Virus record (IMG/VR): IMGVR_UViG_3300018424_000247
Location: 1-24,844 of that record
Reading direction: 5' to 3' (one strand)
Length of the DNA stretch: 24,844 nt
DNA from: a virus
Numbering within the stretch: the first letter of the stretch is position 1; every line of letters starts with the position of its first letter. The translations under genes and the position numbers were made by a program. Positions 1-19,000 of the stretch are shown piece by piece. The notes beneath the pieces are model-generated. The model worked only from the letters and a program-made list of their open reading frames with translations. It was not told the origin of the DNA and did no database searches.

Positions 1-3000
1 ACACCAATATGACGTGGTGATCCATCCAAATCTGGACGATCAAACTCAACTCCACGAAGATCGAGAACTTTATTTAAAGCATCAGAAATTGTTTCAATAT
101 TAGTTTTTAATCTAATATCTGAACTTGCAACAACATTTCCTCCAGAATACATGGTACCTGTTGCTTCAATATCACCTACAGCTTTAACAACTGTACGAGT
201 TTCAGTTCCAGTAAATATCCAACCATCATTAGAATTACCACCAGTTGTAGTAACAGAACCATCAGAATGTTTGTACTCTAATATACCATATTGAGTATAA
301 GATCCGCCCGAGTGATCACTAAATTTAATTTTAGCACCTACACCATTAGTTGTAGGTGATAAGAAGATTCCATCATCATTCGTGAATGTCACATAACCAG
401 TTGTAGTATCATTGGCATCAGATCTTAAGAAACTGGATGCCTGAATACCATCGACGGTATCAGCATCTAGACCAGTACCAGAACCATCGTTTCCTTGGTG
501 CCAAACTAGATTACCATTTGCATAGATATTGTTTGATGCAGTTCTTACTTGTCCAGTTGATTCAATCTGGAATACTTCGGTAGTAGAATTTTGGAATACA
601 AATCCTCTATTTGTACCACCAGTCATTCTAAAGTACATGTTATAATCAGAGGTCGAATCTAATCTTCCACCCCAAGTTCCATCCGTTGCAGAGGACATCC
701 ATATCTTATAACTATCACTATCCCAGAAACGTAAACCTCTTCCATGACCAGATGCGAGTCTTACATCAACATCATTTGATGAATCTCTTCTGAAATATCT
801 TGTATTGGATTCGGTCTCTGTGTAATACCTACTATCATGAGTATGTGAGTCATTAGCGACTACAATCGCATTGTAGGTACCAGATACATCTCCACCAAAA
901 GTCGTAGATGTATTGAGATAATAAGAACCTTGTTGTCCATCAAGTAAGTCCGCATCTAGACCAGATGAAGCACCATCAACTGTCTTAATAAGGGTAAGAA
1001 TTTCAGAAGCAGTTTGATCTCCAGTTGCACCTGATTCAATACCATCTAATTTAGCTCCATCTACAGATAAATCACGTCCATCAACAGTTTGGGAACCAGA
1101 GAATGCAATGTTTCCTGTAAATGTAGCACCTGATAATTGTGCAAATGCAGTAGATTGAAGTCCATCTAAAGTATCTGCATCTAAACCATTTCCAGATCCC
1201 TCATCAGCAGTTGTTAGTATTCTATTGCTATTATAATATGGAACTTTATTGAGTATCCATGAATCTCCGGTAGAAGAATAAGTTATAGTAGCACTCGCAC
1301 CGTCAATGGTCAGTCCTGCTCCGTTGGCAGCTGCTGCGTTTGCAGCACCAGAAGCAAGAGTTAAGTTTAGATCATCAATAGTAATTGTAGTAGAATTAAT
1401 TGTGGTTTGGGTGCCATCGATCTGCAAGTTGCCTTTAATAACAACAGTTCCAGTATTATCGCCAACTGCAGCCGGATCAATAACAAACGATGCAGGTCCT
1501 CTGAGTTCTCCAGCAAGAGTTACTGTATTTGCACTAAAGTTACCAGAACCATCTCTTGCAACAACTTTAGATGCAGTATTTGCAGAAGTTGCATCAACTG
1601 CCCAGGTAGTTGCTGAAGAACCATCGAAGTTTGATCCTGTTAAATAAGTTCCTCTTGTAAGAGTATTGGAGACTTGAGTTGCAGTACCACTCAAGGTAGC
1701 CGTTATTGTTCCCGCACTGAAATTACCAGAAGAATTTCTAGCAACAATTGTAGATGCAGTATTTGCTGATGTGGCATTACTCGTAACAGTAAATGTTGCT
1801 GTACCAGAACCATTATAGGTTGCAGATCCGCTCAATCCAGTTCCAGAAGTATTAAGTGTTAGTGTATTAAGATTGGAACCAAGAGCAACACCAGAAATAG
1901 TGGAGTTTGTTAAAGCACCATTAGGAATATTAGTTAATGATGCACCAGAACCACTGAATGTTGTAGCTGCTAAGACTCCAGTTGAAGAATTAAATGTTAG
2001 ATTAGATCCGCTCTTTGGTGGAAGATTTCCTGTAGCAGCAGTTACGAATAGTGGAAAACAAGTAGTATCAGTAGACTCATCTGCAACATTAATGTTATTA
2101 GCATTAGTTGCTGTAGTCGATGAAGTAGCATTACCACTCAAAGTAGCAGTGATTGTTCCGGCACTAAAGTTACCGGAACTGTCTCTAGAGACTATAGTAG
2201 AACCAGTGTTAGTGGTTGTTGCTGTTGTTGCACTATTTGGAATGTTTGTTAGTGATATACCAGAACCACTGAATGTTGTAGCGGTAATTGTTCCAGCGCT
2301 GAAGTTACCAGAACCATCTCTCGCAACAATTGCTCCACCAGTGTTAGCAGAAGTAGCATTACTTACAACAGTAAATGTTGCATTAGTCTCTTGGTTTGCA
2401 GAGAACGTAGTTGATCCAGATAGACCTGTTCCAGAAGTTTGTAATGTTAAAGTGCCATCTGGAATACTTGTGAAGTTACTAGCATCCAGATAGTAAGAAC
2501 TATCTTGACCATCAAATAGATCTGCGTTAAGATTATCAACTTTTGTTGTGGATGCTACTGTAAATGGTGCAGTTCCAGTTGCTTGTGTTGAAGTGAAAGT
2601 CGTTGCAGTAACAGTATTGCTAACTGTAACCCCAGTGTTACTGGTTTCAAGTTTCTTACTGTTGTTATAGTAAAGTTCAACTGATCCATCGCGTATCATC
2701 TTGATAGCAGTGTGGAAACTGCTACTGTCATGATTTACCAGTCTTAGGTTTGCAGAATAAGCAGTTCCTCCACTATTTTTGGTGTAGAAATCAATATACT
2801 TGGCAGCGGGACTTGTAAAGTTTAATTCACTAGTCAGGTCAACAGTCCCAGAGAATAGACTATTAACAGTTACTGCACCAGCAGCGAAGTTACCAGAAGA
2901 ATCTCTTGCAACAACTTTAGATCCAGTATTTGCAGAAGTTGCATCAACTGCCCAGGTAGTGCTTGCGGAATTATTAAAGTTATTACCAGTTAAATAGGAA

Positions 3001-6000
3001 CCTCTAGTTAAAGTATACTGTAGATTTCCTGAGAAAGTCGTCGCAGAAATAGTGTTTCCTGCAAAGTTACCAGAACCATCTCTTGCAACAACTTTAGATG
3101 CAGTATTTGCAGAAGTTGCATCAACTGCCCATGTTGTATTTGCAGAGTTGTCGAAATTGTTTCCAGTTAAATATGTACCTCTTGTTAATGCATATTGTAG
3201 ATTTCCTGAATATGTTGATGCTGTAATTGTTCCAGCGCTGAAGTTACCAGAACCATCTCTCGCAACAATTGCTCCACCAGTGTTAGCAGAAGTAGCATTA
3301 CTTGTTACTGTAAATGTAACGTTTCCAGAATTATTGAATGATGTGGATCCAGATAATCCAGTTCCTGATGTATCCAGCGTTAAGGTATTAAGTAAAGAAC
3401 CTGCCAGGGTGGTGGCAGTCAATCTACCTGTTGATGGATTATATGTAAGTTTTGTACTGGATACCTTCTGACCTAGATTACCAGTATTTGCAGATACGAA
3501 TGTTGGATAGTGTACTGCGTTCGTTGCGACATCATTTGTAATAGTAGTATTTGTCGCATTAGTAGCAGTACCACTTAAAGTTGCAGTAATCGTACCAGCA
3601 GCGAAGTTACCAGAAGCATCGCGTCTTACAACTCTATTTGCGGTGTTTGTGGTAGCTGATGCATAACCATTCAAATAGTTAGCGTTGAGATTTGTTACCT
3701 GTGTGGTTGAAGCAACTACAAAAGGAGCAGTGCCTTGTGCAACATCAGAAATAAATCTTGAAGCAGTAATAATTCCAACTACATCAACATTACCTAAAGA
3801 ATCAAATGTGACACGATCGGATCCAGCAGAATTTCTTAGTATTAATGCAGTTGTGTATTGCAAGTAAAGATTATTATTAAAGAACTGTATCTTAGAATCA
3901 TGTTCACCTGTCCAATTAGATCCATTTGTGAATCTAATATCAGAATCAGTTCCAACTGTTATTGCACCAGCGCCTGCATTAAATGACACGTCTCCAACAA
4001 ATGTTGGTGTTGTTGTTAAGTTATAGGAACTACCATTACCCTGAAGAATTGCACCACTTGATGGCAATGCATTTAGTCCAGTACCACCTCTAGTAATTGG
4101 AATGACTCCAATATGATTTGCAGAGTCTATGTAATATGCACCAGAATTGCCGCCTAAACTTGCAGCATCAACGTCGCCTCCAGAGGCAGAGTTTTTAATT
4201 GTAATTCTACCGTCTTCACCAACAGCAAACGTAGTTAACTTGTACTGAGATATTCCAAGAGTTGAATAGTCATCAATTGTTGACTCAACTCTGTTCAATC
4301 CAAGGACAAAATCTCCATAATAAGTTGTTATTCCAACTCCACCTGGAGGGAAATCAACACTAGTATATCCTTGAACATCAAATCCTGCAGTTGTTCCGAT
4401 ACCAACAGATGTTATGACTTTCTTGTACGAGGAATCACCAGCTAAGAACGTTTGTTCGTTTGCAACACCAGTACCCAATCTAACTGGGTCAAAAATTCCA
4501 CTAACGATATTTGCGGCATCCAAACTACTGGATGATAATAGAGACCAATTATCTACGTCACTAGAAGAAGTGTTTACTGTCGTTGTATACTCTACATTTT
4601 GTTCTGTCAGAGTCATTATTCCAACTGAACCAGATGCATTCTCCAAACTCTGAGTGTTTAATAATAGTCCATTTATAGAACTGAGAGATTGTGCTCTGGT
4701 TTCATGTAAAGTAAATGTATTTGTAGTTACAGAACCAACAAAATAGAAATTGCCAGTGGTTATGCCAGTTGGAGTAGATCCAGTAACTCTTACCGGATCT
4801 CCTTGAGTGAATGGGTGACCAACGAATGTAATTTGATCTGTGACAGTATTAAATCCAGCTCTAACAAGTTCATGCGTACCAGTTCCACTACTCTGGAGAT
4901 CAAGTTTAGTTACTAATGCATAAGTTGTATAAAGCTCAACGGAACTTATACCGACAGTTTTTGTATAGTAAGTTACCCCATTCGTTAATGGCGATACCGC
5001 AGTACCTGCAGTAACAGTATAAACAACCGCATCTCCGTCTGCAAATGGATGTCCAGATCCAAGAACTATTCTATCGTTAGCAAAGTCTATACTACCACTC
5101 AGATCAATATCAGTTGGTGTAAATGCTACGGTTGTTCCAATTCCAATATTTGTTGAATAACCAACCGCGTTTCCATCTGCAAAATAATCTGGAAGTGCTA
5201 TTGTTCCTGCAAACTTTTGAGCATTCGTCAATCCGATATAGAGTCTAGTTTCTACGGAACCAATTTTAATGGTAAAGTTTGATCCGCCACTTCTTCCACC
5301 AATCTCATTGGGGTCATTTACTGTAAGCAAATCATCTACTTCAAATTTAAATCCACCCGTAGTAATGGCAACATTTGTTACAGTTCCAGAAACACCAACA
5401 GTAATAGTTCCAGTAATACCAGTACCAATACCAGAAGCGATATCAAGTCTTACTCCTGTGTAAATTCCTGCACTTGTATATCCAGATCCACCAACGAGAT
5501 CTTTTAATGATAGTGATACTCCACGAACTAATCCTGTCGTACCATAACCGACATTAGGGAATGATAATGTATCTGTATTAACTCCAGATGTAGTTGGAGC
5601 GGTAACTACACCAATTGCACCGCCACCTGCGTTTACACTTACAATTTCATCCTGATTATTGAAATTATAAATTGTGTCGTTATCTAAAACAATATACTGG
5701 GATAGTAAATCACTTAATAATACGAAGGAGTCTACTGGTTCAGATACAACTTCTCCACTTAAGATATTTTGAGCGGGAATCTGATTTACGAGTTGAGTTC
5801 TAGCACCTTCATAATTCGCCTTATAGTAATTTACACTCTTTGGAGGAATCAAGTCAGCATTAATCTGTCCCAAAGAGTTCAACTGAACAACAGCATTAGG
5901 AATAGAGTTAGTGGAAACGAGTTTATCAATAAAGTTTCCTAGTCTGTTGGATAGGAAAGTTCTAACAGCAAGCTGAGTTGAAACTCTACTGTTTTGTGGT

Positions 6001-9000
6001 CCACCTGTTTCATTATCTCCCATTCCCCCATCAATTGAGAATTCTTCAATTGAAACACCACCAGAGAGAGATAGACGTAGAGAATCTAGATTACCAATTG
6101 TTACTGTGTTATTGAAGATAATATTACCGGTTCTGTTATATGCGGTAATAAAGTCTCCAATCTTGAAATCTCCAAGTTCGTTTGTTCCGGAGGAATATAC
6201 TCTTCCTCCACCTTCACTAACTTGTTCCGTAGCTGGATCAGTTCTTCCACCGTTTTCTGGTAGAGCATTATAGTCTGTACCAGAACCAGAATATTCCCAA
6301 GTATGTGAAGAGGAGTTAATGACAGATGGTCTGTGGAAGTGTAGTTTATAATCTTCTGGTAGATTTGATGGAGTAATTATTGTTCCACCTGCAAGAGTAG
6401 ATGCAATCTTTGCATTAACACTCCAATAAGTTGTTAAACCAGTGACTGCTCCAATAGAAGTTCCTATTGGAGTTCCAGTGTGATCTTCGATTAGTAAATT
6501 TGTTACCCCATCTGTAACTGCAAAATTTACTCTCTCATCATTCGACAATTCAACCGATACGATAAGTTCTCTAGAAGAAGAATCCCATGTATAAGCATAT
6601 CCAACAGCAGTTCCTGTAGTTACTGTTTGTTGAACTTGTCTACCAGAAACGAATTCTAATGTCTGTGTTCCTGGAATAGTTATCTTTTGATATGAATTAT
6701 GTCTATCAACTATCTCACTTGCAAAAAACTCTTGCGTATTTTTAATAAATGTGTGGATACCAGTAGATGCGTCAGTAAGATCTACTATTTGTGTTAGAGA
6801 AGAATCTTCAGTTAACTGAATGGTATTTGCGTCAATATAAACTACGTAATATTGATTCTCATGAATTAGTCCACCAATAACTCTCTCTGGGACATCTTGA
6901 ACATCTCCGTAATAAACTACAGAATCTCCATTGAGGAATGGGTGTCCCGTAATGAATAGTTTATCACTGGCAATTCCTACAGAACCACCAACTGTAGATG
7001 CTGTTCCTGTAAATGTTTGAGTTACGGGAACTGGTTTGAATAGAGCTGTTTGGTCATTTCCACTGTTGTTTATAAATCTACATACATACAAATCCTGTTC
7101 AGATCTTCCCAGACCAACGACTTTAAGAGTTTGTGATCCACCAGAAGTTCCAGTTGCAGCAATTCTTCCTCTATCAAAAGCAAATGAATTTTTACTGAAT
7201 CCGGTAGATCTGAGAGCATATAAACCGAAGTTGGTTGCAGAGTTTGTGATTGATAGGTATCCACCAGACTGAGTTAATGATCCATACTTACAGAAGATTT
7301 GGAAACAAGAAACGACCTGAGCATAACCATCATTAATAGTTCTCCAACCAATACCACCAAAGGAAACCATGGTGAATGCCGCAGCAACCATAGATTTACC
7401 TTGTTGTGGTTGATCGCCAACAACAGGTCTTTCAGATTCTTGAGGAACTAAAGCTACGTTTGGTGATTGTACTTTAGATCCATCAACAAGAATACCATTA
7501 CCACCCAAGAATGAGAGAATAGAACAGTTTTGAATGTATGGCGATCTAAAAATAACAGGGGGATCGTTCTTAGTTGCGTATCCAATTCTGGATGTAGTCG
7601 TATCCGCAGGGTCATCAAATGCAACAGCGTAATTGAAAGTATATTGTGGAACACCGGCAGCATCAATTGCATCTTTCATTGCAAATCCAGTGAGATATAC
7701 TCCGTTTCTTAGTCGGAATAAATCTTTGTTTGCATTTTGTGGTCTTATAATTGTGTTTCTTAGGTTATCACCAAGGACGGCAATATCATCATAAAGGATG
7801 ATGGGATTGTCCTCCACATACTCACCTGCTTCCACAAAGATCGCAATTGGTTTTGATTGAGTCTCTGGCAGGACCGTGGCAGGCGCTGCAGTGGTACCCA
7901 ATCCAACGATGGTCGTAATGATACCAACATAGTTAACCAACGCACTTCTAACGTCTGCACAGTCGGTTTGACCGATACTTGTACTTGCTATTCCGACCAA
8001 ACTTGCTGTGTCTAGTGCAGTAGTTAAAATACCCACTAAATTACCAATTTGGGTTTGGGTGGAAGAACAAGAATATGGGTCCGTATTAAATCCAGTTATT
8101 GAATCAGCAATAACGGTCAAATCTCTATTATTAAGTTGATTTGTAATTGCTTTTTTTGCTAGATCTCTGGTGGCATTAAAGGCGGTAATAGATTCGGAAG
8201 TCTCTCCCGCTACCCCATTGGAAATTAAAGTTCCAGCTCCATCAAAATATTTCTTAGTTGCATATAAAATATGTTGATTTGTATCAAAAGAAACGTCCTG
8301 AGCTAAAGCATCAACAATATAGTTTAGATCTCTAGCGCATTTACGTCCACCAAAAATATTTGTCGAACCAATACCAACAGAATCGCTAACATTGAGATCT
8401 GGAGTGATTAGGAAATATCCATAATTTGAAGTGGTACCAATTCCCGCAGTAGAACCAGCAGCAACTGCAGTAGTAACAATACCAGTGAGAGTAGAAACCG
8501 TTGATCTTACATTAGCGCAAGATAGTGGATCTGTGTTGGATCCAGTTATAGGATCTGCTGTAATTGTAAGGTCTTGAATTGTCAACTGGTTCGTGAGTGC
8601 AGAGGACATACCAACTGCAGCCTCAGTAAATGCATGATTTGACTCAATTTCTTCCCCAACAAGTCCATTTCCTAACGGAGCTCCGCCATCAAAATAGAAT
8701 CCAAGGAATGATCTTGTATAATTATTACCACCGGTAAACACGTCAGTAGAAACAGCATCAATAAAATATCCGAGATCTCTCTTACACTTATCCTCTGTTG
8801 ATGATACTCCGGGATAAGTTGCTACTGTATCTGCCCATGCATAGTCAATAATTTCTTGTTTGTTCTGTTGAATCAGTCTGTAAGAATCATAGAATCTGGA
8901 TCTTTCATTGGATTGAGTATCCCCAGGGAAGTAAAAGTCGGGGTGATCAATAGCAATCGCTGCAAGAGACTTGTCAACAATCTCAAGTTTGTTTGCAAGA

Positions 9001-11717
9001 ATTAAATTTCTAGCGTCTTTTGATACATGGAAATCAAAATCATTTGTATTATTTGGATCCTGAGTAATTGTAAAATCAAATGACTGTGATACTGAAGTTT
9101 GGTATATAGTTGGTGGAGTTTGATTATTGATTACATACTGACCAATGAACTTCAAATACTCATAAGCAAAGATTGCTTGTTCTTCTTCTCCAGCAACATA
9201 TGAAGATGCTCCATCCCAATATGCATTACCAGCTTCGATGGATTTAGAGTTTCCTCCAAATCTGATATCGTAAACTAAAGCATCTACTAGATAACCAACA
9301 TCTCTCTTACAAATAGTCGCATCATAATCGGGAAGATCTGTAGTGATGTTTTCGTAGTTAAACTCTAAGTATGCTACTACTTCTTCTTGAATAAATTCTT
9401 TGTTTGATTCGAGAAGATTTCCTGCATCAAGATATCTTTGCCCAGGAATTACAAAACTATTGAATGAGGCCAATTGAGCCGCTTTCTTGATAGTTTTTAC
9501 TGGTAGAGTTTTTCCATCATAACTATCGTTACCATTTAGTGCAGAAACATAATATCTGGATTCATAAAGTCCTGCAGTCGTGAAACCTAGTTCACCATTA
9601 CCACCTGGCAGTATTCCCAATACCTGACCAGCAGTACCAACAGTTGCAGGAAGAGTTAATGTATAGTGTGATGATATTCCAGCGGTTGACGTTTTTATGG
9701 TGACACTACTGTCTTGAGATAAAATGTCATTATACGCATCAAAAGTTAAAGTTGTTACACCAACTTTATTAAGGGTAGAAATACCACTATAATTTAAATC
9801 TGTACCAGAAATTGTTGTTACAACTCCTGTGTTTACATAAGATGTATCAATGTTAGCAGTAGTGTAAGTTAAATCTGTACCAGAAATTGTTGTTACAACT
9901 CCTGTGTTTACGTAAGCGGTGTCAATATCAGCCGTGGTAATAGTAGAATCCGTAGAAGTTAGATTAGTAACAGTTCCAGTAGTAACTTCTAAATTGGTGA
10001 TTGTTCCAATACCACTATAATTTAAATCTGTACCAGAAATTGTTGTTACAATTCCAACATCCGCATAGACATTATTAATTGTTGCATTAGTGTAAGTTAG
10101 ATCTGAGCCAGAAATAGAAGTTACAACTCCAGTATTAACATAAAGAGTTGTTACAAAACCGACATTAATGTAAGAATTGCCCGATCTAGAAGTTGCGTAA
10201 TTTAAGTTAGTACCAGAAAGGGTAGTTACTACACCTGTAACAATATTACCTGTAGTAATATTAGAAATATTATAATCTAAACTTGTACCAGAAATTGTTG
10301 TAACTATGCCTACATTAATGTAACCATTTTCAGAATATGAATTCGTTATAAAAGCGTCTACTATTGTTGATAGTCCAACAGATTCACGAGTTACTTCAAA
10401 ATCTGTTGAATTTAAATAAGTAGTAATACCAATTTCAGCATTGATACCATAAGTGAAAATATCAGCACCAACATATACATCTCCAGTAGCTACAATATCA
10501 TTAGTTTGTACTGTAGTACCTACTGATATATTTTGTCCAATATTTGCGTATTCCTGAACATCGAGAAATCCACTAATGGTGGTTATACCAGAAACCTGAA
10601 GATCAACATTTAATATTGTACCAATAGTTGATGAAATTGTTCCAGCAACAGCGCCTCCAGCATAAATGTATAAAGTATCTTCATCAGATCCAGGTGAAGA
10701 TTCTGGAATAATATATGTATCCCCATCTACATCCTTCACTCCACCAAGAGAACCCCATTCACCTCCAGGACCATAACCTTCAAATGAAGAGTTATCTGTA
10801 TTAAATCTAATCTGTCCTGTTACCGCTACACCTACAACGTCTCTCTCTTCGGTTGTTCCAGAAGGTATTTGGATAGAATTGGTACTATCAAATATAACTC
10901 TATCAGAAAATGTCGATAGACCAGTAATATAAGCAGGTCCATTTACTGTTAAATCTTCTAAAGTAACATATCCAGCTGTAATAATACCAACATTCAATAT
11001 TCCTGTTAACGGATCATTGAATGTTAAACTTGTTGATATTGATAAATTGCTGAAATAAAAGGGTTCTGTTGATCCTTGAGGCCCAATTACAGTTTCACTT
11101 ACTGTAATGCTGCCTACTCCCACTTCAGTTACAAGAGCTCCAGATAATAATATAGAATAGTTTGATATTGCATAACCTACCGCAATATTACTAGTGTCAA
11201 TACCTAATACATTTCCATCCGTATTATTAAGTGTACCTATTTTTTGTATCTGAGTTTCTGGAGTGTAATCAGATAATTGTATAAAATTTGTCCCTACAGA
11301 TATTACAGTAGTTCCAGAACTTACAACATTGCTGGTTACTACATAACCTACTCTAATATCACTAGTATTGATTCCAGTTATTATATTATTAGAAGTATCA
11401 CTTCTAATACCAGATAATGTTACAGGAGCTCTAAAATTGATATCTAAACTTCTTAATTGGAGATTCCCATCAATGTTTGCATCTCCGATGGCTACAAATT
11501 GCAAACTACCTGTAGTGGTTGTTCCAATTCCTACCCATCTTTTGTTAGTTAATCCTTGTGGAGAAGTTTCTCCAATTAGATATTGCCCGCCTGGAGTAGA
11601 ACCATCATGAACTACAGCCACGTCTAGATTGGTATCTACCGTTATTTCACCAGATGCACCTGTAAACGCCTGGTGTTCTGCAGATGACCCTCTTCTGAAC
11701 TGTATCTGTTTGGTCAT
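1..11717 (-). CDS. Giant tail fibre/adhesin with C-terminal S74 chaperone domain (3' end outside window)
   Basis: One open frame runs from ATG 11717-11715 to the window edge, 3905 codons without a stop, so the protein exceeds 3905 residues. Visible parts: residues 1-45 resemble the N-terminal domain of major tropism determinant and cyanophage fibres (TKQIQFRRGSSAEHQAF, then VVHDGSTPGG). Residues 457-646 hold VTTISGTDL repeats. Residues 720-746 carry the beta-helix entry motif NGNDSYDGKTLPVKTIKKA. Residues 800-1270 hold cysteine modules, 1285-1500 a probable right-handed beta-helix, 1850-1930 a conserved glycine-rich hinge (GGMGDNETGG), and 2535-3405 the RD-SGNF repeats. HTHDSRYYTETES follows near 3610. 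From about 3863, SSDIRLKTNIETISDALNKV and GSPRHIG mark the start of an S74 intramolecular chaperone, which in known fibres aids trimerisation and cleaves itself off. The start is fixed by the family N-terminus and a late promoter; the RBS is weak. Receptor binding is inferred. Confidence 0.9.
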   Translation of the reverse strand, partial: MTKQIQFRRGSSAEHQAFTGASGEITVDTNLDVAVVHDGSTPGGQYLIGETSPQGLTNKRWVGIGTTTTGSLQFVAIGDANIDGNLQLRSLDINFRAPVTLSGIRSDTSNNIITGINTSDIRVGYVVTSNVVSSGTTVISVGTNFIQLSDYTPETQIQKIGTLNNTDGNVLGIDTSNIAVGYAISNYSILLSGALVTEVGVGSITVSETVIGPQGSTEPFYFSNLSISTSLTFNDPLTGILNVGIITAGYVTLEDLTVNGPAYITGLSTFSDRVIFDSTNSIQIPSGTTEERDVVGVAVTGQIRFNTDNSSFEGYGPGGEWGSLGGVKDVDGDTYIIPESSPGSDEDTLYIYAGGAVAGTISSTIGTILNVDLQVSGITTISGFLDVQEYANIGQNISVGTTVQTNDIVATGDVYVGADIFTYGINAEIGITTYLNSTDFEVTRESVGLSTIVDAFITNSYSENGYINVGIVTTISGTSLDYNISNITTGNIVTGVVTTLSGTNLNYATSRSGNSYINVGFVTTLYVNTGVVTSISGSDLTYTNATINNVYADVGIVTTISGTDLNYSGIGTITNLEVTTGTVTNLTSTDSTITTADIDTAYVNTGVVTTISGTDLTYTTANIDTSYVNTGVVTTISGTDLNYSGISTLNKVGVTTLTFDAYNDILSQDSSVTIKTSTAGISSHYTLTLPATVGTAGQVLGILPGGNGELGFTTAGLYESRYYVSALNGNDSYDGKTLPVKTIKKAAQLASFNSFVIPGQRYLDAGNLLESNKEFIQEEVVAYLEFNYENITTDLPDYDATICKRDVGYLVDALVYDIRFGGNSKSIEAGNAYWDGASSYVAGEEEQAIFAYEYLKFIGQYVINNQTPPTIYQTSVSQSFDFTITQDPNNTNDFDFHVSKDARNLILANKLEIVDKSLAAIAIDHPDFYFPGDTQSNERSRFYDSYRLIQQNKQEIIDYAWADTVATYPGVSSTEDKCKRDLGYFIDAVSTDVFTGGNNYTRSFLGFYFDGGAPLGNGLVGEEIESNHAFTEAAVGMSSALTNQLTIQDLTITADPITGSNTDPLSCANVRSTVSTLTGIVTTAVAAGSTAGIGTTSNYGYFLITPDLNVSDSVGIGSTNIFGGRKCARDLNYIVDALAQDVSFDTNQHILYATKKYFDGAGTLISNGVAGETSESITAFNATRDLAKKAITNQLNNRDLTVIADSITGFNTDPYSCSSTQTQIGNLVGILTTALDTASLVGIASTSIGQTDCADVRSALVNYVGIITTIVGLGTTAAPATVLPETQSKPIAIFVEAGEYVEDNPIILYDDIAVLGDNLRNTIIRPQNANKDLFRLRNGVYLTGFAMKDAIDAAGVPQYTFNYAVAFDDPADTTTSRIGYATKNDPPVIFRSPYIQNCSILSFLGGNGILVDGSKVQSPNVALVPQESERPVVGDQPQQGKSMVAAAFTMVSFGGIGWRTINDGYAQVVSCFQIFCKYGSLTQSGGYLSITNSATNFGLYALRSTGFSKNSFAFDRGRIAATGTSGGSQTLKVVGLGRSEQDLYVCRFINNSGNDQTALFKPVPVTQTFTGTASTVGGSVGIASDKLFITGHPFLNGDSVVYYGDVQDVPERVIGGLIHENQYYVVYIDANTIQLTEDSSLTQIVDLTDASTGIHTFIKNTQEFFASEIVDRHNSYQKITIPGTQTLEFVSGRQVQQTVTTGTAVGYAYTWDSSSRELIVSVELSNDERVNFAVTDGVTNLLIEDHTGTPIGTSIGAVTGLTTYWSVNAKIASTLAGGTIITPSNLPEDYKLHFHRPSVINSSSHTWEYSGSGTDYNALPENGGRTDPATEQVSEGGGRVYSSGTNELGDFKIGDFITAYNRTGNIIFNNTVTIGNLDSLRLSLSGGVSIEEFSIDGGMGDNETGGPQNSRVSTQLAVRTFLSNRLGNFIDKLVSTNSIPNAVVQLNSLGQINADLIPPKSVNYYKANYEGARTQLVNQIPAQNILSGEVVSEPVDSFVLLSDLLSQYIVLDNDTIYNFNNQDEIVSVNAGGGAIGVVTAPTTSGVNTDTLSFPNVGYGTTGLVRGVSLSLKDLVGGSGYTSAGIYTGVRLDIASGIGTGITGTITVGVSGTVTNVAITTGGFKFEVDDLLTVNDPNEIGGRSGGSNFTIKIGSVETRLYIGLTNAQKFAGTIALPDYFADGNAVGYSTNIGIGTTVAFTPTDIDLSGSIDFANDRIVLGSGHPFADGDAVVYTVTAGTAVSPLTNGVTYYTKTVGISSVELYTTYALVTKLDLQSSGTGTHELVRAGFNTVTDQITFVGHPFTQGDPVRVTGSTPTGITTGNFYFVGSVTTNTFTLHETRAQSLSSINGLLLNTQSLENASGSVGIMTLTEQNVEYTTTVNTSSSDVDNWSLLSSSSLDAANIVSGIFDPVRLGTGVANEQTFLAGDSSYKKVITSVGIGTTAGFDVQGYTSVDFPPGGVGITTYYGDFVLGLNRVESTIDDYSTLGISQYKLTTFAVGEDGRITIKNSASGGDVDAASLGGNSGAYYIDSANHIGVIPITRGGTGLNALPSSGAILQGNGSSYNLTTTPTFVGDVSFNAGAGAITVGTDSDIRFTNGSNWTGEHDSKIQFFNNNLYLQYTTALILRNSAGSDRVTFDSLGNVDVVGIITASRFISDVAQGTAPFVVASTTQVTNLNANYLNGYASATTNTANRVVRRDASGNFAAGTITATLSGTATNATNTTITNDVATNAVHYPTFVSANTGNLGQKVSSTKLTYNPSTGRLTATTLAGSLLNTLTLDTSGTGLSGSTSFNNSGNVTFTVTSNATSANTGGAIVARDGSGNFSAGTITASTYSGNLQYALTRGTYLTGNNFDNSANTTWAVDATSANTASKVVARDGSGNFAGNTISATTFSGNLQYTLTRGSYLTGNNFNNSASTTWAVDATSANTGSKVVARDSSGNFAAGAVTVNSLFSGTVDLTSELNFTSPAAKYIDFYTKNSGGTAYSANLRLVNHDSSSFHTAIKMIRDGSVELYYNNSKKLETSNTGVTVSNTVTATTFTSTQATGTAPFTVASTTKVDNLNADLFDGQDSSYYLDASNFTSIPDGTLTLQTSGTGLSGSTTFSANQETNATFTVVSNATSANTGGAIVARDGSGNFSAGTITATTFSGSGISLTNIPNSATTATTTNTGSTIVSRDSSGNFSAGTITATLSGNATSSTTATNANNINVADESTDTTCFPLFVTAATGNLPPKSGSNLTFNSSTGVLAATTFSGSGASLTNIPNGALTNSTISGVALGSNLNTLTLNTSGTGLSGSATYNGSGTATFTVTSNATSANTASTIVARNSSGNFSAGTITATLSGTATQVSNTLTRGTYLTGSNFDGSSATTWAVDATSANTASKVVARDGSGNFSANTVTLAGELRGPASFVIDPAAVGDNTGTVVIKGNLQIDGTQTTINSTTITIDDLNLTLASGAANAAAANGAGLTIDGASATITYSSTGDSWILNKVPYYNSNRILTTADEGSGNGLDADTLDGLQSTAFAQLSGATFTGNIAFSGSQTVDGRDLSVDGAKLDGIESGATGDQTASEILTLIKTVDGASSGLDADLLDGQQGSYYLNTSTTFGGDVSGTYNAIVVANDSHTHDSRYYTETESNTRYFRRDSSNDVDVRLASGHGRGLRFWDSDSYKIWMSSATDGTWGGRLDSTSDYNMYFRMTGGTNRGFVFQNSTTEVFQIESTGQVRTASNNIYANGNLVWHQGNDGSGTGLDADTVDGIQASSFLRSDANDTTTGYVTFTNDDGIFLSPTTNGVGAKIKFSDHSGGSYTQYGILEYKHSDGSVTTTGGNSNDGWIFTGTETRTVVKAVGDIEATGTMYSGGNVVASSDIRLKTNIETISDALNKVLDLRGVEFDRPDLDGSPRHIG
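3..131 (-). other. S74 intramolecular chaperone domain, N-terminal part
   Basis: In the giant fibre's frame the sequence reads VVASSDIRLKTNIETISDAL, followed by LRGVEFDRPDLDGSPRHIG. The pattern S-D-x-R-x-K-x-x-I with A-L-x-K-V and a later R-x-I-G is typical of Peptidase_S74 domains at the end of phage fibres and tailspikes, where cleavage occurs at the serine of the SD motif. Here that is the SSD at about residue 3865. The rest of the domain, including the catalytic lysine region and the stop codon, should lie within a few hundred bases beyond position 1. Family assignment is from recognition, not a search. Confidence 0.85.
1536..1604. repeat. Perfect 69-base direct repeat, copy 1
   Basis: This stretch is identical to 3063-3131 and encodes another RD-SGNF unit (SANTASKVVARDGSGNF). 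A third, imperfect copy lies near 2883-2955. The first two copies begin 1527 bases apart, a multiple of three, so exchange between them keeps the frame. Confidence 0.82.
2284..2364. repeat. Perfect 81-base direct repeat, copy 1
   Basis: This stretch is identical, base for base by eye, to 3223-3303. It encodes part of one RD-SGNF unit of the giant fibre. The copies begin 939 bases apart, exactly 313 codons, so recombination between them would delete or duplicate a block in frame. Confidence 0.85.
3063..3131. repeat. Perfect 69-base direct repeat, copy 2
   Basis: This is the partner of 1536-1604. The downstream context also resembles copy 1 (a TRGTYLTG-type unit), so the larger duplicated block is longer than the perfect core but has diverged at its edges. 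Confidence 0.82.
3223..3303. repeat. Perfect 81-base direct repeat, copy 2
   Basis: This is the second copy of the repeat at 2284-2364. The flanking bases differ on both sides, which sets the limits of the perfect match. Because synonymous positions also match, the duplication is probably recent or maintained by gene conversion. Confidence 0.85.
7900..9320 (-). repeat. Alternating cysteine-containing modules in the giant fibre
   Basis: Two module types are interleaved. Type A has the pattern C-x-R-D-x-x-Y-x-V/I-D-A-x-x-x-D, then Y/F-x-D-G and usually G-x-x-G-E. It occurs three times: CKRDVGYLVDALVYDIRF near 9316, CKRDLGYFIDAVSTDVF near 8796, and CARDLNYIVDALAQDVSF near 8345. Type B has the pattern C-x-x-V/T-x-S/T-x-h-x-x-h-x-G-I-h-T-T, at about 8520 (CANVRSTVSTLTGIVTTAV), 8075 (CSSTQTQIGNLVGILTTAL) and 7970 (CADVRSALVNYVGIITTIV). 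Both look more helical than the surrounding beta-rich sequence. Similar stretches occur in cyanophage structural proteins as far as I recall, but I know of no named family. Confidence 0.7.
9780..10345 (-). repeat. VTTISGTDLxY short repeat array
   Basis: In the fibre frame a motif near YVNTGVVTTISGTDLTYTTA recurs about every 25 codons, in roughly seven variants. At the DNA level 9794-9836 and 9869-9911 are identical over 43 bases and start 75 bases apart, which is one 25-residue unit. A further copy starting at 10022 matches for about 29 bases. The pattern suggests a regular beta-solenoid or a trimeric shaft turning once per unit. It grades into a less regular region upstream in the protein. 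Confidence 0.8.
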
Positions 11718-11763: not shown

Positions 11764-13623
11764 TTAGATGATAACTGTGTAGGATCTTGGGATTTGGAAT
11801 GGATTGTTTCTGACATCAGCAGAAATTGCCGGTGCATATAATATTGTACCAATGCCAACGTATCCAGATTTGGAGAATGATTCGAATCCGGAAGAAATAT
11901 AAAATAGACTTCCAGATGTAAAATCATAAGTCTTGACTAGAGCATTATCCGACGCTCCAGTAACAAAGATATCGCCAAATCCATCTGGAGAAGGTATAAA
12001 CTTAATGTTTGGATAAACTACATCATAACCATATATTGATATTGATCCAGTTCCAATTTCTGCAGCTAAAGTGGAATTATGGGATATTCCACTGATATTA
12101 ATAGATGCAACTGCACGACATCCAGTATTATCATCAAATGTCTTAATATTATTATCGAATAAGAAGAAGGTTGATGAAAAATCACATACTTCTGGATAGA
12201 GATATTCATCAGATTTTGCAGTTATTGCAGAACCAAGAATCGTCAGTTGTACTGTTAGTCCTGATGCAAAAACAAGATAGGATTCCGAACCTCCAGAAAG
12301 AACTAAGAATAGACCAGAACCAGTAAACTCAGAATATGTTCTATTTTCAATACCGGAAGATATTGTAAATAGAGATCCTTGAGAAATCTCACTTATTGAT
12401 GACTTAATATCAATAGTACCAGATATAGTTATAATTCCACTTACATCAGCAGAATATACGGATATTGGACTATCTTCTGAATTTCCGCCGATAGTATATA
12501 AAACTGTATCTTCTGGTGGATTTACAGTAAGACTTGTAGAAGCTGAATGATCATAATCTGAAGGTACAGTGTCACTATCGCATGTATCATACAAATCATC
12601 ATCACAAAGATGAGTTACAAATCTAACTGGTATTGAATCTGGAGTCAGATAAGAAACCGAGTGTGTTACTATAGATTCACCAAAAATATCAAGATCAGAA
12701 GGAATAACAGTATAATGTTTTGTAGTATTTTCTTGGTCTGCGGCAGAATTAAATGTAAATAGAACGGTATTTTCTACATCATCTACTAATATAGATTCTT
12801 GTGCAGTTCCAGTAATCTGATATAAAGTAGTGTTAGTGAGTCCTGTAGTCTGAACTACAGACGACTCCACAGCACCAGATGGAGTTGTAATAGTTCCAGA
12901 ACCGTTATAATCAAATTTATTTCTTATAATAACTCCACCGGACTTGGAGACAGTTCCAGAACCTACGTAATCAAATACTACTTCTTCTTGTAAAGTAGAT
13001 GATATTGATATTACTCCAGAAGTTCCTGGATTTCTTTCATCTCCATAATATCCATAATTTTGAATCTCTTTATCTTCAGCTGAACCGGATAATGTAGTAA
13101 TACCAACGGCATTATAATTTGATCTGGAGAAAGATTCGTCAGCGGAATCAAAGAATATGAATGGAACGTTGGCTTCACCTCTCGGATATGGATTTATTGG
13201 TATAGTACCAGCAAATCCATAGATGGATATCGTACCTATTCCCGATCCAGGAGTCTTATCATTTATTGGATATCTTGGTGAATAGTATCTCGGTTCACCA
13301 ACTATCTTAAATGCGAACGTAGATATGCCAATATTTCTGTCTATACCATAATGTGGAGTATAATCTACGTCCGGATGAACAAGTTCAGTTTCAGTTACAT
13401 TTATTGTTCCGAAAGGATATATGCTCTCATCATTAGTCAATAATCCCCAATCGTCCTCTGGATTTTCCGGAGTACACAGAGGGTGTTCTTGCGGATCTAT
13501 AGATTCTGTACCTTCATTATAGTCAACAAAAGCAGTTGGAGAATTTGATATACTACCAAAATCCTCCTCAAAGTATTCATTTACCCCTGTTTGGGGATTG
13601 TAAATAAAAATGCAATGTGACAT
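11764..13623 (-). CDS. Repeat-rich beta-structured virion protein, 619 aa, function unknown
   Basis: I do not recognise this as a named protein. After an acidic N-terminus (MSHCIFIYNPQTGVNEYFEED), with several prolines and cysteines up to about residue 110, most of it is made of degenerate units of about 18-20 residues. Their form is G-S-G-x-I/L-x-x-x-S-G-x-x-E-S, for example GSGTVSKSGG, GSGTITTPSGAVES, TLYQITGTAQES and GSLFYISSGFESFSKSGY. These glycine-serine and aromatic strands suggest a beta-solenoid or repeated beta-sandwich. Similar repeat proteins sit beside fibre genes in marine T4-like phages, so a fibre, connector or decoration role is the best guess. The gene lies between a terminator upstream and the giant fibre gene downstream. 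Its RBS is poor (AGGA is 17 bases from the ATG) and I see no late-promoter box, so its expression is unclear. Confidence 0.85.
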   Translation of the reverse strand: MSHCIFIYNPQTGVNEYFEEDFGSISNSPTAFVDYNEGTESIDPQEHPLCTPENPEDDWGLLTNDESIYPFGTINVTETELVHPDVDYTPHYGIDRNIGISTFAFKIVGEPRYYSPRYPINDKTPGSGIGTISIYGFAGTIPINPYPRGEANVPFIFFDSADESFSRSNYNAVGITTLSGSAEDKEIQNYGYYGDERNPGTSGVISISSTLQEEVVFDYVGSGTVSKSGGVIIRNKFDYNGSGTITTPSGAVESSVVQTTGLTNTTLYQITGTAQESILVDDVENTVLFTFNSAADQENTTKHYTVIPSDLDIFGESIVTHSVSYLTPDSIPVRFVTHLCDDDLYDTCDSDTVPSDYDHSASTSLTVNPPEDTVLYTIGGNSEDSPISVYSADVSGIITISGTIDIKSSISEISQGSLFTISSGIENRTYSEFTGSGLFLVLSGGSESYLVFASGLTVQLTILGSAITAKSDEYLYPEVCDFSSTFFLFDNNIKTFDDNTGCRAVASINISGISHNSTLAAEIGTGSISIYGYDVVYPNIKFIPSPDGFGDIFVTGASDNALVKTYDFTSGSLFYISSGFESFSKSGYVGIGTILYAPAISADVRNNPFQIPRSYTVII

Positions 13624-13729: not shown

Positions 13730-14749
13730 TCAGTCAAGTGCGATGTTTAGTGTAATTCTGATTTGGTCTCCATTGTTTTGAATTTCATAAGGACCATTCG
13801 AGAATCTTTCAGCGTACATTATACTTGAATATAGTGTGCAAGTATCAAGTCCAACAGCAGAATTCAATACGGGATTGATTGCTGGAGTAGTATGGAACTC
13901 ATTAACTGATGGAGTTGAAAATACTGTGTATACATTAGAATCTAATACGGTATTTCCGACACCAGCAGCAACGTAAACAACATCACCAGCGACCAGTCCG
14001 TGACCAGTTGCGGTAACAGCACCATAATCAAATTCTACAGTGGGATCAGTTGCAGCCTGGATGTTATCTACAAGTGGTAGGTCCAAATAAACTACTTTTA
14101 GGGCCCTATCTACACCGATAACTTTTGTTCCTACTTGAATTCCAGCGTTTCCGCCAGCACCACCCTTAACAACCATTCCTAGAGTGATATCATCAACACT
14201 TAGATCAGAATCGATTGTAATATACTTATTTCCTACAACTCCAATGGTTGGATCCGATAAAGTTCCCTTTGAAACTGTTGTCCCTTTTCCAACAGTAGCG
14301 TAATGTTCAACGCCTTGAACAGTTACAGGCATGTTGTTAGCTCTGGTCACATAATAACCAAAAATACTACCTGCAGCTCCAGTGAATGTGAATGTTTGTT
14401 CAGGATAAGTTGCTGTGGTTCCACTACCAACCTGAGAAACTACCCATCTGGACCCATTTAATAAAATGCCTGTTTGGGAGGTATAAGCTTGATCAGTTCT
14501 ATTGTCTACACAATATGGATATCCAGTACTTGGGGGAGTTCCATAAACATTCGTATTTAAAGAATTATATGGTTCATAATATGCAGTCGTAGATGGAACA
14601 TCACTCTCAGCAGGAGTGGTGTCACTAGTAAACAATTTTAAAACTAGATTTCTGGGAGACTGGTCAGAGAGACTAGCTGTATGATTGTTTTGTGCAACCA
14701 AGTATCTGAGTGACTCAAGTTCTCCAATATTTGGAACTAATAGTGCCAT
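13730..14749 (-). CDS. Virion structural protein, probable tail or fibre-associated, 339 aa
   Basis: The N-terminus MALLVPNIGELESLRYLVAQ and the following NLVLKLFTSDTTPAESD match the start of a structural protein conserved in T4-like cyanophages, by recognition. Residues 105-150 contain SRWVVSQ, then QTFTFTGAAGSIFGYYV, a beta-sandwich pattern shared by several small phage fibre proteins. The middle (about 165-280) has a threonine- and valine-rich segment with DDITLGMVVKGG, and the C-terminus ends AERFSNGPYEIQNNGDQIRITL. No membrane segment or signal peptide is visible. The start is well supported: AGGGGAG lies eight bases upstream, with a TATAAATA late box further back. A terminator follows the gene, so it can form its own late unit or end a longer one. 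The exact location in the virion is unknown. Confidence 0.85.
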   Translation of the reverse strand: MALLVPNIGELESLRYLVAQNNHTASLSDQSPRNLVLKLFTSDTTPAESDVPSTTAYYEPYNSLNTNVYGTPPSTGYPYCVDNRTDQAYTSQTGILLNGSRWVVSQVGSGTTATYPEQTFTFTGAAGSIFGYYVTRANNMPVTVQGVEHYATVGKGTTVSKGTLSDPTIGVVGNKYITIDSDLSVDDITLGMVVKGGAGGNAGIQVGTKVIGVDRALKVVYLDLPLVDNIQAATDPTVEFDYGAVTATGHGLVAGDVVYVAAGVGNTVLDSNVYTVFSTPSVNEFHTTPAINPVLNSAVGLDTCTLYSSIMYAERFSNGPYEIQNNGDQIRITLNIALD

Positions 14750-14792: not shown

Positions 14793-14800
14793 TATTTATA
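14793..14800 (-). promoter_or_regulatory. T4-type late promoter TATAAATA
   Basis: This is an exact match to the T4 late consensus on the minus strand. It overlaps the last codons and stop (14796-14798) of the 225-residue gene and lies 43 bases upstream of the 339-residue gene, with the strong ribosome binding site in between. The expected leader is about 35-40 bases. Confidence 0.75.
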
Positions 14801-15473
14801 ATTTTAATTTTAAAGAGACTACAAACCTGTTGATGCCACTAACAGATCTAACCCAAAACCTTATTATATCACCAGAGACTATTGTTTTACTCCAACCAAT
14901 CAAATTGTCATCACGATATTTACTATTATTTGAAATAGATGGATATTGATTATTACTTAATGATGTGAAAGTCGGAAAATCTGCATAATTTGACTTTTCT
15001 ATATCAATAGAAAGATCGCCTGTTTGATCTGCAAGTATTGTGACAGATTCCAAAACTCCACTAACATCAAGAGTTACAGACCCTTTGTTACCAGTTAACA
15101 TATCAATTGAACCACTATCCACAACATAATTAATAGTTCTTGTTAGGTCTGCAGTTGTAGCTAAAGCAACAATGGTATTATCTATGTTTCCAGCGGGAGC
15201 TGTATCAAATATGATGTTTGCACCAGAAATAGTAAAATCTTTTCCTGGTTTTAATATTTGACCATCAGACATAACTAACAGTTGTTGGTCATTAATAGGT
15301 ACATAAGGTGTACCATCCTTGGTTAAAGCAAATGTAGTTAAGATTCCATCAAATTGGGAACTAATATCATCCAATATTATGTTGGCATACTGGATGGATT
15401 TTGTTGGAATTTCATAGTCAACACCAATCCTATATGGACCCGGTTCATTTAACGTTACTACATAATCAGTCAT
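14796..15473 (-). CDS. Virion structural protein with fibre-type beta domain, 225 aa
   Basis: The segment of residues 27-105 contains YANIILDDISSQFDG, then TFALTKDG, LLVMSDGQILKPGKDFTISG and an IIFDTAPAG motif. This recurs in cyanophage structural and fibre proteins: a small beta domain in which LDD-x-x-x-x-F-D-G, the Q-x-P/K-G-x-D-F-T turn and F-x-x-A-P-x-G are the conserved points. The C-terminal half (from about residue 118) is a different beta-rich piece (SGSIDMLTGNKGSVTL, then ISNNSKYRDDNLIGW), with a basic end. The ATG overlaps the stop of the upstream 110-residue gene in an ATGA arrangement, and AGGAGT lies six bases upstream, so the two genes are translationally coupled. A fibre-base or connector role fits the context but is inferred. 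Confidence 0.82.
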   Translation of the reverse strand: MTDYVVTLNEPGPYRIGVDYEIPTKSIQYANIILDDISSQFDGILTTFALTKDGTPYVPINDQQLLVMSDGQILKPGKDFTISGANIIFDTAPAGNIDNTIVALATTADLTRTINYVVDSGSIDMLTGNKGSVTLDVSGVLESVTILADQTGDLSIDIEKSNYADFPTFTSLSNNQYPSISNNSKYRDDNLIGWSKTIVSGDIIRFWVRSVSGINRFVVSLKLKL

Positions 15474-15802
15474 TGAGATACTCCTGGTGTAACAAGAACA
15501 TTTCCTTGTACTGCTCTAGTTCTATATTCATTGGGAGAAATCAGAATAACATCATAGACATATCTACCACCTTCTATTGATCCAGTAGAAGTATATCCCA
15601 TAGAAACAGTAACTTTGCCGTTTAATCTGTCTGGAAATGATAAAGTCAATGGATATGCAGTAGATGATGATGGATGTTTTCTAATAGAGGAAATTCCAGA
15701 ATACCCCGTTAGGTTTAATGGGGAATTATTACTATTATTAATTGTAAAAGTGGCTTGAAAGTCAACCCCCTGTTCAAGAACTAAGTTTACATTCCTTGCC
15801 AT
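15470..15802 (-). CDS. Small Ig-like/BppU-N-like phage protein, 110 aa
   Basis: The protein reads as a single compact beta-sandwich. It has LEQGVDFQATFTINN at residues 8-22, PLNLTGYSGISSIRK at 28-42, a GRYVYDVILISP strand near 79-90 and a VQGNVLVTPGVSQ end. This order (Q-G-x-D-F, then P-L-N-L-T-G-Y, then Y-V-Y-D, then G-x-V-x-V-x-P) is widespread among short tail proteins of phages and prophages and resembles the N-terminal domain of baseplate upper protein BppU. It may act as an adaptor between the baseplate or tail and a fibre. It is transcribed from a CATAAATA box just upstream, has AAGGGA nine bases before the ATG, and is coupled to the 225-residue gene by a four-base overlap. The family match is by eye. 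Confidence 0.82.
   Translation of the reverse strand: MARNVNLVLEQGVDFQATFTINNSNNSPLNLTGYSGISSIRKHPSSSTAYPLTLSFPDRLNGKVTVSMGYTSTGSIEGGRYVYDVILISPNEYRTRAVQGNVLVTPGVSQ
15480..15485 (-). promoter_or_regulatory. Shine-Dalgarno AGGAGT for the 225-aa gene
   Basis: AGGAGT on the minus strand lies six bases before the ATG at 15473, within the last codons of the 110-residue gene. With the ATGA overlap it supports coupled translation and this start. Confidence 0.7.
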
Positions 15803-16043: not shown

Positions 16044-19000
16044 TTAGATTGTAGCAACTGATCTAAAGTCTCGAATTCTTGGAACATATGCAGGATTTGT
16101 ACCAGACATCACTATTTTAATTTGATATCCGTTGAATTGTGGAAGATTCTTTATTGTATATTCATATGTTCTGAAATCACTGCCAAGTGTTGATGGTCCA
16201 ATAAACTTATCAGAGAGTCCATCATTATTTGACGGATTAATAATATTTCCATTGGCATCAAGATTTAGATATCCAGGGAAAAGTTCCCAAAGAGGTTCAG
16301 ACTTAGAATCTGATCTATACAATCTATAAAGAACTCTAATGTCATTTGTATAGTGTCTGTATGCATCAAAAATTACATTGATACTGTCTGCTTGTTTCTC
16401 CAATCTGACAATTTTGCTAAGATATACCGCAGCAGAAGGATCTCCATACATTGTATTGACTCTAAAGTCATTTGAATAATCAGAGATTTTAGAATTAATT
16501 CTATTGTTGATAGTTATAAGATTAACTCTATCCAAGTCAATCATGGGACTTACCTTGGTATTATTTGTGGTAAGATCAACTTCTAGAGTAAATGATTTTG
16601 AAGCAGGAAGTTGACTCAATCTAGAAGTTTCATTTACCTTCGATGCAATAATTCTTGGACTATCAAAAGCATTAGTTTCATTTAGGGAAATTGGTTCAAA
16701 ACCTTGATCTACGAATGATACCAATGAATTAGAATCAACTCCGGAACCACTAGTAGTTCTTACCCTCGCAGAAACAGATGTTCCTGTTGGACTCATCATT
16801 TGAATTTTAGGTAGAATAGAAGTAAATGGAATATTTTGGGTTGCTTTCTGTCCTCTACTGGAAGAAACCAGTGGAATTATATCATAAGATCCACAAGATT
16901 TTTTAGAATCAAAGTACAATTCTGGATATGAATTTGGATTTGCATTAGATCTGTCTGTAGAAGCTACTCCAGTTTCTCCTTCTTGATTAATTTTCAAATA
17001 GTAATAATCTAAATCATTTGGATAAGTGGACTGATCCGTATCAGATAAGATATGAGTTTTATTTATTCTATTCAAAGAAACTCCAGATATTTCATACTTG
17101 TAAACTTTTGTTTTATCAGGGTATGATCCAGAAATACTATTTGCAACGTTTCTTGTAATTCCCGTCAAAGAACTTGTACTTGTAACTATTCCAGTGTACT
17201 TGATTATTTCATCTTCTATTAAAATATAACCAGGATTTAATGTTCCAACAGGAATATTTTCAAAGGTTGTTAAAATTCCAACACTACTTACAACTATAGG
17301 ATCTGTAGAGTTTGGTGATAGTGCGGAATTCAATGTAACTGGTTTTACATCGGGTTCAATTCCACTAATTTTAACATAATCATTTGTGGAATACATTCCA
17401 TGATTACTATGGGAAACTTTGAAGTGTAGTCCGTCTTCAATAACATTGATATATCTGACTTTTGCATTTGGTAATGAGTTTGTACCTCCAGAACCGACAT
17501 AATATATCTCATCAGTAGAATTTTGAATTGGATTTCCAGATACTTTATCAATTACAAGAGCATTAAACGAAGAAATAATTCCAGAAATATTTGGTATGCT
17601 GAGAATTAAATTACTTCCTCTATTGTCTACCTGAGAATAATCCACAGATAGTGCGTCACCATATGCATAACCAGTTCCACCAATAGAAACTGTTGCCGCT
17701 ATTGCGACACCATTCTGAACGCTTAAATCTACTTTGGCACCAGCACCAAATCCTGTCAAAGAAACCAAATCTACATTTGAATATGTCTTAAATCCAGAAG
17801 TAAATCCACTTCCAACAGAAGTGACAACCAGGGTACTTCCAATGCCAACTGATCCAGCCAAACTCTTTAATTTAGAACTAAATTTAGAATTATTATTTTG
17901 AAGAATAGTTATACCTGGAGTTAAATTGGTTTGTTCAGAAGAACTGAAGCTCTTTCCAACACCAACTAGTAGTGATCTGGAAATAGTGTCTATTGGATTT
18001 GACTTTAATGTAGCTATTTGTTTGTTACCAATATCCAAGTCTGGATTATAGAATCTAACAGTGGAAGTTCCTCTATAGAAATCAGCTCTATATAATGTTA
18101 GTTTCAAATCTTCCAATTGACTTGGATCCCAAGTTGCACCATTCTGTGACTTGAATAGAGAACCGAGAAGTGGTTGTTGAGAGACAATTATCTTTTCTGC
18201 CTCTACATTATTAACTGTTGTAATATCCTCCTCTCCCATTCTTGAAATAAAGACAGTGTATTCATCAGAAGCTGAAAGAAGAACAACACAATAAGCTTGA
18301 CCACCTTCACAGTAAACGGGAGATGGGAATGTAAATGTGGTCGGAATAGTTCCATCAGTAGAAACATTAACTTGAGATGGATCCAATATTACTTCACCAA
18401 AAGGTAATATCTCTTGAGTTGGTAAACCAGTCTGCATTGTTCTTATTTGTGCTGTAACTGGTAGATTTTTGGTATCTCTAGTGTTAAAGTACACATCAAC
18501 CTTGGTTAAAAAGACGCCTGGTTCATCAGGGACTTCAAAAGATTGTGCTAATGGGTCAATCCATCTTGTTTGGGTGGTCGATCTATTCCTAAATGTAGTA
18601 TTTGCTCGTATCTCAGTTTTTTCTTCAGTTACAACTCTCTCATCAGTTCTTACACTTCGATCAATTTCGGAATTTCTTATTCTGAGTGTTACTTCTTCTG
18701 TATTGTTTAGGGTTCCAGAAGCAATATATCTAGCGTCTGCGCTACTATCAGTTGCTCCAGATATAGTTGTATTTGATGAACTGGTAGTTAGTGTAAACGT
18801 TTTTGTGCCGGTTTCAAAAGAAGGAGTTGAAGCTAACGATGGATCTGGAATAAAGAATGATCCTATAAGTGTACCAGAAGAATCTGTAATCATTCTGAGA
18901 TTGGAAACCTCTGCAACTGCCCCGCTGGTCTCGCCCTTCAATTGCATTTTAGTAACAATATATCCAAAGAAACCAGAAGCAGATTGTAACTCTAAACTAG

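Follow-up and report, generated by a model that had tools for sequence, protein, structure and literature searches.

The window, i.e. the whole stretch of DNA that was analysed (24,844 nucleotides), is a complete linear virus contig record. One gene occupies almost half of it, and its features and neighbours are as follows.

3..11717, minus strand: giant tail-fibre gene, 3905 of about 3962 codons (open frame; PHROG tail fibre families 5342 and 4527; single-frame relatives)
3..122, minus strand: start of the Peptidase_S74 chaperone, residues 3866-3905, with SSDIRLK (Pfam PF13884, E 3e-6)
117..482, minus strand: swappable tip cassette of 366 bp just before S74 (identical flanks of 825 bp and 116 bp)
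1458..3821, minus strand: repeat shaft, residues 2633-3420, with repeats of the 'ARDGSGNFSAGTITAT' type (self-comparison; shuffled control of zero)
7158..7892, minus strand: most conserved core, residues 1276-1520, beta-helix-like by sequence (75-90% identity across relatives)
7872..8405, minus strand: phycobiliprotein-like module 3, residues 1105-1282, whose upstream half has diverged and whose Cys1127 lies in KCARDLNY (hhalign; repeat of module 2)
8406..9053, minus strand: phycobiliprotein-like module 2, residues 889-1104, Cys978 in KCKRDLGY (AlphaFold2 model; PDB fold matches; hmmsearch E 6.6e-6; Pfam PF00502)
9003..9440, minus strand: phycobiliprotein-like module 1, residues 760-905, Cys803 in ICKRDVGY (hhalign of the module class to CpcA/CpcB; only cyanophage matches)
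9690..10412, minus strand: short repeats 'GVVTTISGTDLNY', residues 436-676, a variable N-terminal stalk (self-comparison; missing in several relatives)
11595..11705, minus strand: Mtd_N N-terminal domain, residues 5-41 (Pfam PF18454, E 3.6e-9)
11764..13623, minus strand: 619-aa protein without family match, in the place of S-SCSM2R_111 (1369 aa)
13730..14749, minus strand: 339-aa protein, phrog_10467
14796..15473, minus strand: 225-aa virion structural protein, phrog_10330
15470..15802, minus strand: 110-aa LtfC-like protein, phrog_1084
16044..23570, minus strand: 2508-aa protein, phrog_358, whose S-SCSM2R relative is called DUF4815
23577..24842, minus strand: gp8-like protein of the baseplate wedge, truncated at the contig end (PF09215, phrog_438)

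The giant gene runs from its ATG to the contig edge in one frame, and because the window is the whole virus contig, its stop lies beyond the record. At a GC content of 37.8%, a frame of 3905 codons would arise by chance with a probability of about 10^-117, and throughout the gene the GC of the three codon positions follows a coding pattern. The original prediction of a tail-fibre gene encoding a single chain, with the S74 domain just starting at the edge, was borne out: Pfam recognizes S74 from residue 3866, and the PHROG families (phrog_5342, E 2e-201), the Mtd_N domain and the synteny all agree with a tail fibre. The stop that was to be sought beyond position 1 was found in a near-identical contig (L004), which shares 825 identical bases upstream of the tip and 116 bp within S74, and then continues for about 57 codons before it terminates. 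The full protein would therefore have about 3962 residues, very long as foreseen, but slightly under the predicted 'about 4000 residues or more'. Downstream of its stop, L004 carries a 274-aa gene followed by genes matching the T4 neck protein and the sheath stabiliser gp15.

The giant gene lies between baseplate wedge genes and neck genes, as do cyanophage giant tail fibres, and its relatives in isolates and other contigs lie beside the neck gene gp13. The nearest named phage is Synechococcus phage S-SCSM2R, which has the same gene order: baseplate gene, 2505-aa gene, LtfC-like gene, two small fibre-module genes, 1369-aa gene, a colinear 3403-aa fibre gene at the same locus, and neck genes. 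The 2508-aa neighbour (phrog_358) matched 1537 records, and distant relatives of it occur in phages of Staphylococcus, Salmonella, Bacillus and Listeria. A 1501-aa core of the giant fibre is covered to 99-100% in two isolates, and the cores of the nearest two relatives are 69% and 63% identical over 1500 residues. The cultured giant fibres S-SCSM2R_112, S-PM2p091, Syn1_101 and WJZ47903 of DSL-LC03 have the same core and module family, a similar length and, in most cases, the same site before gp13; the window fibre differs in being longer and in having its own tip.

An assembly artefact fusing two genes into the long frame could be suspected in a single metagenome contig that ends within the gene and has a tip polymorphism close to its edge, where assemblers break. 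However, relatives colinear with the window gene over its whole length, each in a single frame, are present in the isolates S-SCSM2R and DSL-LC03 and in more than 20 contigs, so that the frame is not a two-gene join; the complete relatives found in IMG/VR have between 2311 and 5354 codons, again in one frame. A chimeric junction is conceivable only next to the tip, within the last 500 bp. An artefact is thus extremely improbable, and as judged from the sequence the frame is real and conserved.

The size of the protein, which had been considered remarkable, proved to be ordinary. Fibres at the same locus measure 3338 aa in S-PM2, 3380 in Syn1, 3219 in S-WAM2 and 3115 in ACG-2014i, and the relative in the freshwater phage DSL-LC03 has 3161 aa. 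A second fibre elsewhere in S-PM2, Syn1 and ACG-2014i reaches 3779-4102 aa, and S-SCSM2R_104 (5172 aa; L002, 32914-39949), which also bears modules and adjoins a gp8-like gene, is longer still. The 4971-aa long tail fibre of S-CREM2 was detected with 286 peptides in the virion proteome by mass spectrometry (PMC10665884). The idea of a size record was rejected, since frames of 6076-7312 codons are found in Syn9, P-SSM4, P-SSM7 and others. Because cultured T4-like cyanophages routinely have fibres of 3100-5000 residues, the length of the window fibre is not novel; what is new is its phycobiliprotein-like content.

A windowed dot-plot revealed three sets of repeats, namely residues 436-676, the cysteine modules (797-1282) and the shaft (2633-3420), with shuffled controls of zero; the predicted repeat shaft was thereby confirmed. 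When conservation was measured against 20 relatives, the first 600 residues were variable except for Mtd_N, a block from about residue 676 to 2650 was conserved with a peak at 1276-1500, and beyond this block the repeat shaft was followed by a tip that varies among the relatives and by S74, which is conserved. The N-terminus, previously described as adhesin-type, is instead an Mtd_N domain, more likely the end that anchors the fibre to the virion. The expected beta-helix gained strong sequence conservation but not a proven fold: the predicted model of this region is of very low confidence, and for this reason no enzyme activity is claimed for it. At the other end, Pfam and the end taken from L004 place the S74 chaperone at the C-terminus, as anticipated. 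The Ser and Lys of SSDIRLK are present, and the domain would be expected to undergo autoproteolysis. The C-terminal chaperone with its S-D-I-R-L-K start is common to the Peptidase_S74 (endosialidase-type) fibre proteins, whereas in the window about 3860 residues of fibre precede it and no endosialidase domain was found; the final 599 residues found no match in the PDB. Some relatives (L098, L096, L104, L105) begin with a different N-terminus (MAGNRDLSKF, MDKFLSGRKS) or carry, in place of S74, another C-terminal domain (GPENGVYVRGK...DYWT).

The tip just before S74 differs between the window and L004. Where the window has 366 bp, L004 has an unrelated stretch of 411 bp (positions 826-1236) between identical flanks, and the two tips are perhaps two alleles of one population. 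This single comparison shows a wholesale cassette swap rather than the adenine-biased point changes in a variable repeat that mark a Mtd-type target of a diversity-generating retroelement. Replaced stretches were also seen in the tip region of other pairs of relatives (L088/L101, L086/L097, L091/L094), and in some relatives a different C-terminal domain takes the place of S74. The putative receptor-binding tip is, on this sequence evidence, a swappable cassette. Such variation fits the variability in host recognition known from marine phages, whose fibres have variable C-terminal recognition regions ('metaviromic islands'; PMC3909814). Those fibres likewise have a variable recognition end and an otherwise conserved chain, and what sets the window tip apart is the sharp exchange of 366 for 411 bp, with 825 identical bases on one side and 116 on the other.

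The helical cysteine modules noted earlier are indeed modules (Cys803, Cys978, Cys1127), but their likeness to phycobiliproteins, the pigment-bearing proteins of the host's light antenna, had been missed. The first signal came from a profile of residues 760-1860, which matched phycocyanin alpha in the PDB (E 8e-4). The three module classes were then aligned by hhalign with CpcA and CpcB from 80 cyanobacterial loci; the best pairings reached probabilities of 92-96% for the two complete module classes and 85% for the class of module 3, where the match is confined to the C-x-R-D helix, against at most 11% for reversed-sequence decoys. A 64-row module profile searched against the PDB gave a best E of 6.6e-6 and 127 sequences at E<=1, the 60 listed being all phycobiliproteins. 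Pfam recognized the 'Phycobilisome' family PF00502 in 38 of the 64 modules, and any other family in one module each; the best family member had E 3.9e-7, while the window module scored 19.2 bits against a curated cut-off of 22.2. AlphaFold2, run without templates on module 2, returned a model with pLDDT 88.3, pTM 0.84 and eight helices, which we read as X, Y, A, B, E, F, G and H. The best 50 Foldseek matches of this model in the PDB were all phycobiliproteins (probability 1.00, TM to target 0.55-0.77), with E-values that are modest by themselves (best 2e-3). The model and its top fold matches (50/50) thus indicate a globin-like fold with an N-terminal X-Y hairpin. The weight of the identification lies in the agreement of five tests, and the predicted phycobiliprotein fold of the cysteine modules is well supported.

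The chromophore motif K-C-x-R-D is largely kept. In the alignment of 64 modules, C90, R92 and D93 are invariant and K89 occurs in at least 90%, and the module cysteine falls on phycobiliprotein Cys84. The Arg and Asp of the motif stand at the chromophore-binding places. Among modules picked without requiring Cys, by a pattern that did require the Arg-Asp step, Cys is present in 161 of 161; in the module set collected by HMM, Cys is found in 91% and Asp in 95%. In degenerate copies Cys, Arg and Asp tend to go missing together. Modules of L083, L086, L097, L082 and L002 (first module) have lost Cys with Arg or Asp (NTWKAGIGS, STFRTRIGN).

Convergence, i.e. short helical repeats combined with a chance C-x-R-D motif, would account for the low identity of the modules to phycobiliproteins (12-17%) and for a sequence signal that spans only about 60 residues (helices B and E). 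We regard it as improbable, because the fold match spans some 160 columns and keeps the order of the eight helices, the top matches are phycobiliproteins and no other globins, the same site is matched by all three module classes, and Pfam finds Phycobilisome at the E-value given above. The modules share with phycocyanin, phycoerythrin and allophycocyanin (PF00502) the eight-helix globin-like fold, here predicted, the X-Y hairpin and the Lys-Cys-x-Arg-Asp at the chromophore site. They differ in being tandem domains of a viral fibre, at about 15% identity, and in having an extra invariant Asp and a GGN motif in and after helix E.

Among 50,697 phage records, all those matched by module 1 (329/329) and module 2 (240/240) are cyanophages. 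The fibre core is likewise confined to cyanophages, and therefore this range is not special to the modules. Scans of the genomes of T4, KVP40 and the pelagiphage HTVC008M found none, and none was found in S-CREM2, whose proteome is consequently silent on modules in virions. The protein SSM1_102 of S-SM1 (6180 aa, three module matches) is a giant structural protein different from the window fibre; its cluster, T4-GC969, is reported among the proteins detected in purified S-SM1 virions (Sullivan et al., 2010; PMC3037559), a detection stated at the level of the cluster. No description of phycobiliprotein or phycobilisome domains in a tail fibre or virion was found in the open-access literature, and the annotations of the cultured giant fibres name none; such domains in a virus particle are apparently unreported so far, even though automatic Pfam annotation may already flag some module proteins.

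The modules accompany the bilin-lyase gene cpeT, whose function in phages has been called 'unresolved' (PMC3037559). In a set of 23 named phages, to which the window phage does not belong, CpeT is present in 16 of the 17 with modules and in none of the six without. Both were found by HMM in S-PM2, Syn1, ACG-2014i, S-SCSM2R, S-WAM2, P-HM2, Syn9, P-SSM4, S-SM1, S-SSM5 and P-RSM4, and in ACG-2014f CpeT was identified by annotation and tblastn. For S-ShM2, P-SSM7, Syn19 and Syn33 the modules were found here, and CpeT is as listed in PMC3037559 (Table 3). The one phage with modules but no CpeT is DSL-LC03; P-SSM2, S-SSM7, S-SM2, S-TIM5, P-TIM68 and S-CREM2 have neither, and no phage scanned has CpeT without modules. 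The two sources of CpeT calls differ, as the HMM missed S-ShM2 and P-SSM7, which are in the published table, and the table omits the cpeT of Syn1, evident from HMM and GenBank. The hypergeometric chance of this co-occurrence is about 7e-5 (17/C(23,16)), a figure that ignores kinship and includes several phages chosen for having modules or cpeT. If only HMM evidence is counted, the value is 0.004 among cyanomyoviruses and 0.016 for thirteen phages taken mainly by name, kinship being again ignored. In S-PM2, Syn1 and ACG-2014i (L374, L375, L376), cpeT lies 0-2 main genes upstream of the second giant module-bearing fibre gene. The fibre gene adjoining cpcT in S-SCSM2R has no modules, and in ACG-2014f cpeT does not adjoin a fibre gene. 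Among the phages scanned CpeS is found only in S-CREM2, known to have an S-type lyase (PMC10665884), and bilin reductase (PF05996) in none of 14 records.

The gene very probably encodes a giant receptor-binding tail fibre of a T4-like cyanophage (Kyanoviridae) that infects cyanobacteria of the Synechococcus type, with modules of phycobiliprotein fold that keep K-C-x-R-D and co-occur with cpeT. Along the chain, the Mtd_N anchor would be followed by the variable stalk of repeats, the three phycobiliprotein-like modules, the conserved core rich in beta structure, the repeat shaft, the swappable receptor-binding tip and finally the S74 chaperone. As in other S74 proteins, this domain is expected to trimerise the chain and then cleave itself off, in which case nearly all of the mature fibre would lie within the window. 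In a trimer of this kind, the tandem modules of three chains may form a phycobiliprotein-like disc round the three-fold fibre axis.

Whether the modules bind bilin is a separate question. It is quite possible, judging from the retained motif, that they carry one on their cysteine, phage CpeT acting as lyase or chaperone. An alternative that deserves comparable attention is that the modules are of phycobiliprotein descent and have lost bilin binding, the fold serving the phage only as a structural or trimer-forming unit of the fibre while CpeT acts on the host antenna, as has been speculated in print (PMC10452541). This alternative would explain the joint loss of Cys, Arg and Asp in some modules, and why P-SSM2 and S-SSM7, which make bilins (pebS), have no modules; it explains less well why K-C-x-R-D is otherwise kept and why CpeT never occurs without modules in the phages scanned. 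Bilin binding is further opposed by DSL-LC03, with modules and no CpeT, and by the modules lacking the motif; T-type lyases such as CpeT are, in addition, thought to serve the beta Cys153 site and not Cys84 (PMC10452541).

If bilin is bound, the pigment might make adsorption light-dependent. Darkness almost abolishes adsorption of the T4-like P-HM2 but leaves that of the podovirus P-SSP7 unchanged (PMC7112961); six module matches were found in P-HM2 and none in P-SSP7, and S-PM2 also bears modules. A speculative and rather unlikely extension is that cyanophage tail fibres are chromoproteins, in which phage CpeT attaches bilins from the host or the phage to the captured phycobiliprotein domains of the virion, and the pigment acts in light-dependent adsorption. 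If true, this would give phage cpeT a purpose and would explain the difference in dark adsorption between P-HM2 and P-SSP7.

Cyanophages are known for photosynthesis and pigment genes that are taken to support host metabolism. If present in the virion itself, antenna-like domains would put host pigment proteins to a different use, and the orphan lyase gene cpeT would gain a candidate target in the same genome. The modules would also be a molecular candidate for light-dependent adsorption, and both ideas can be tested in cultured phages such as S-PM2, P-HM2 and S-SM1.
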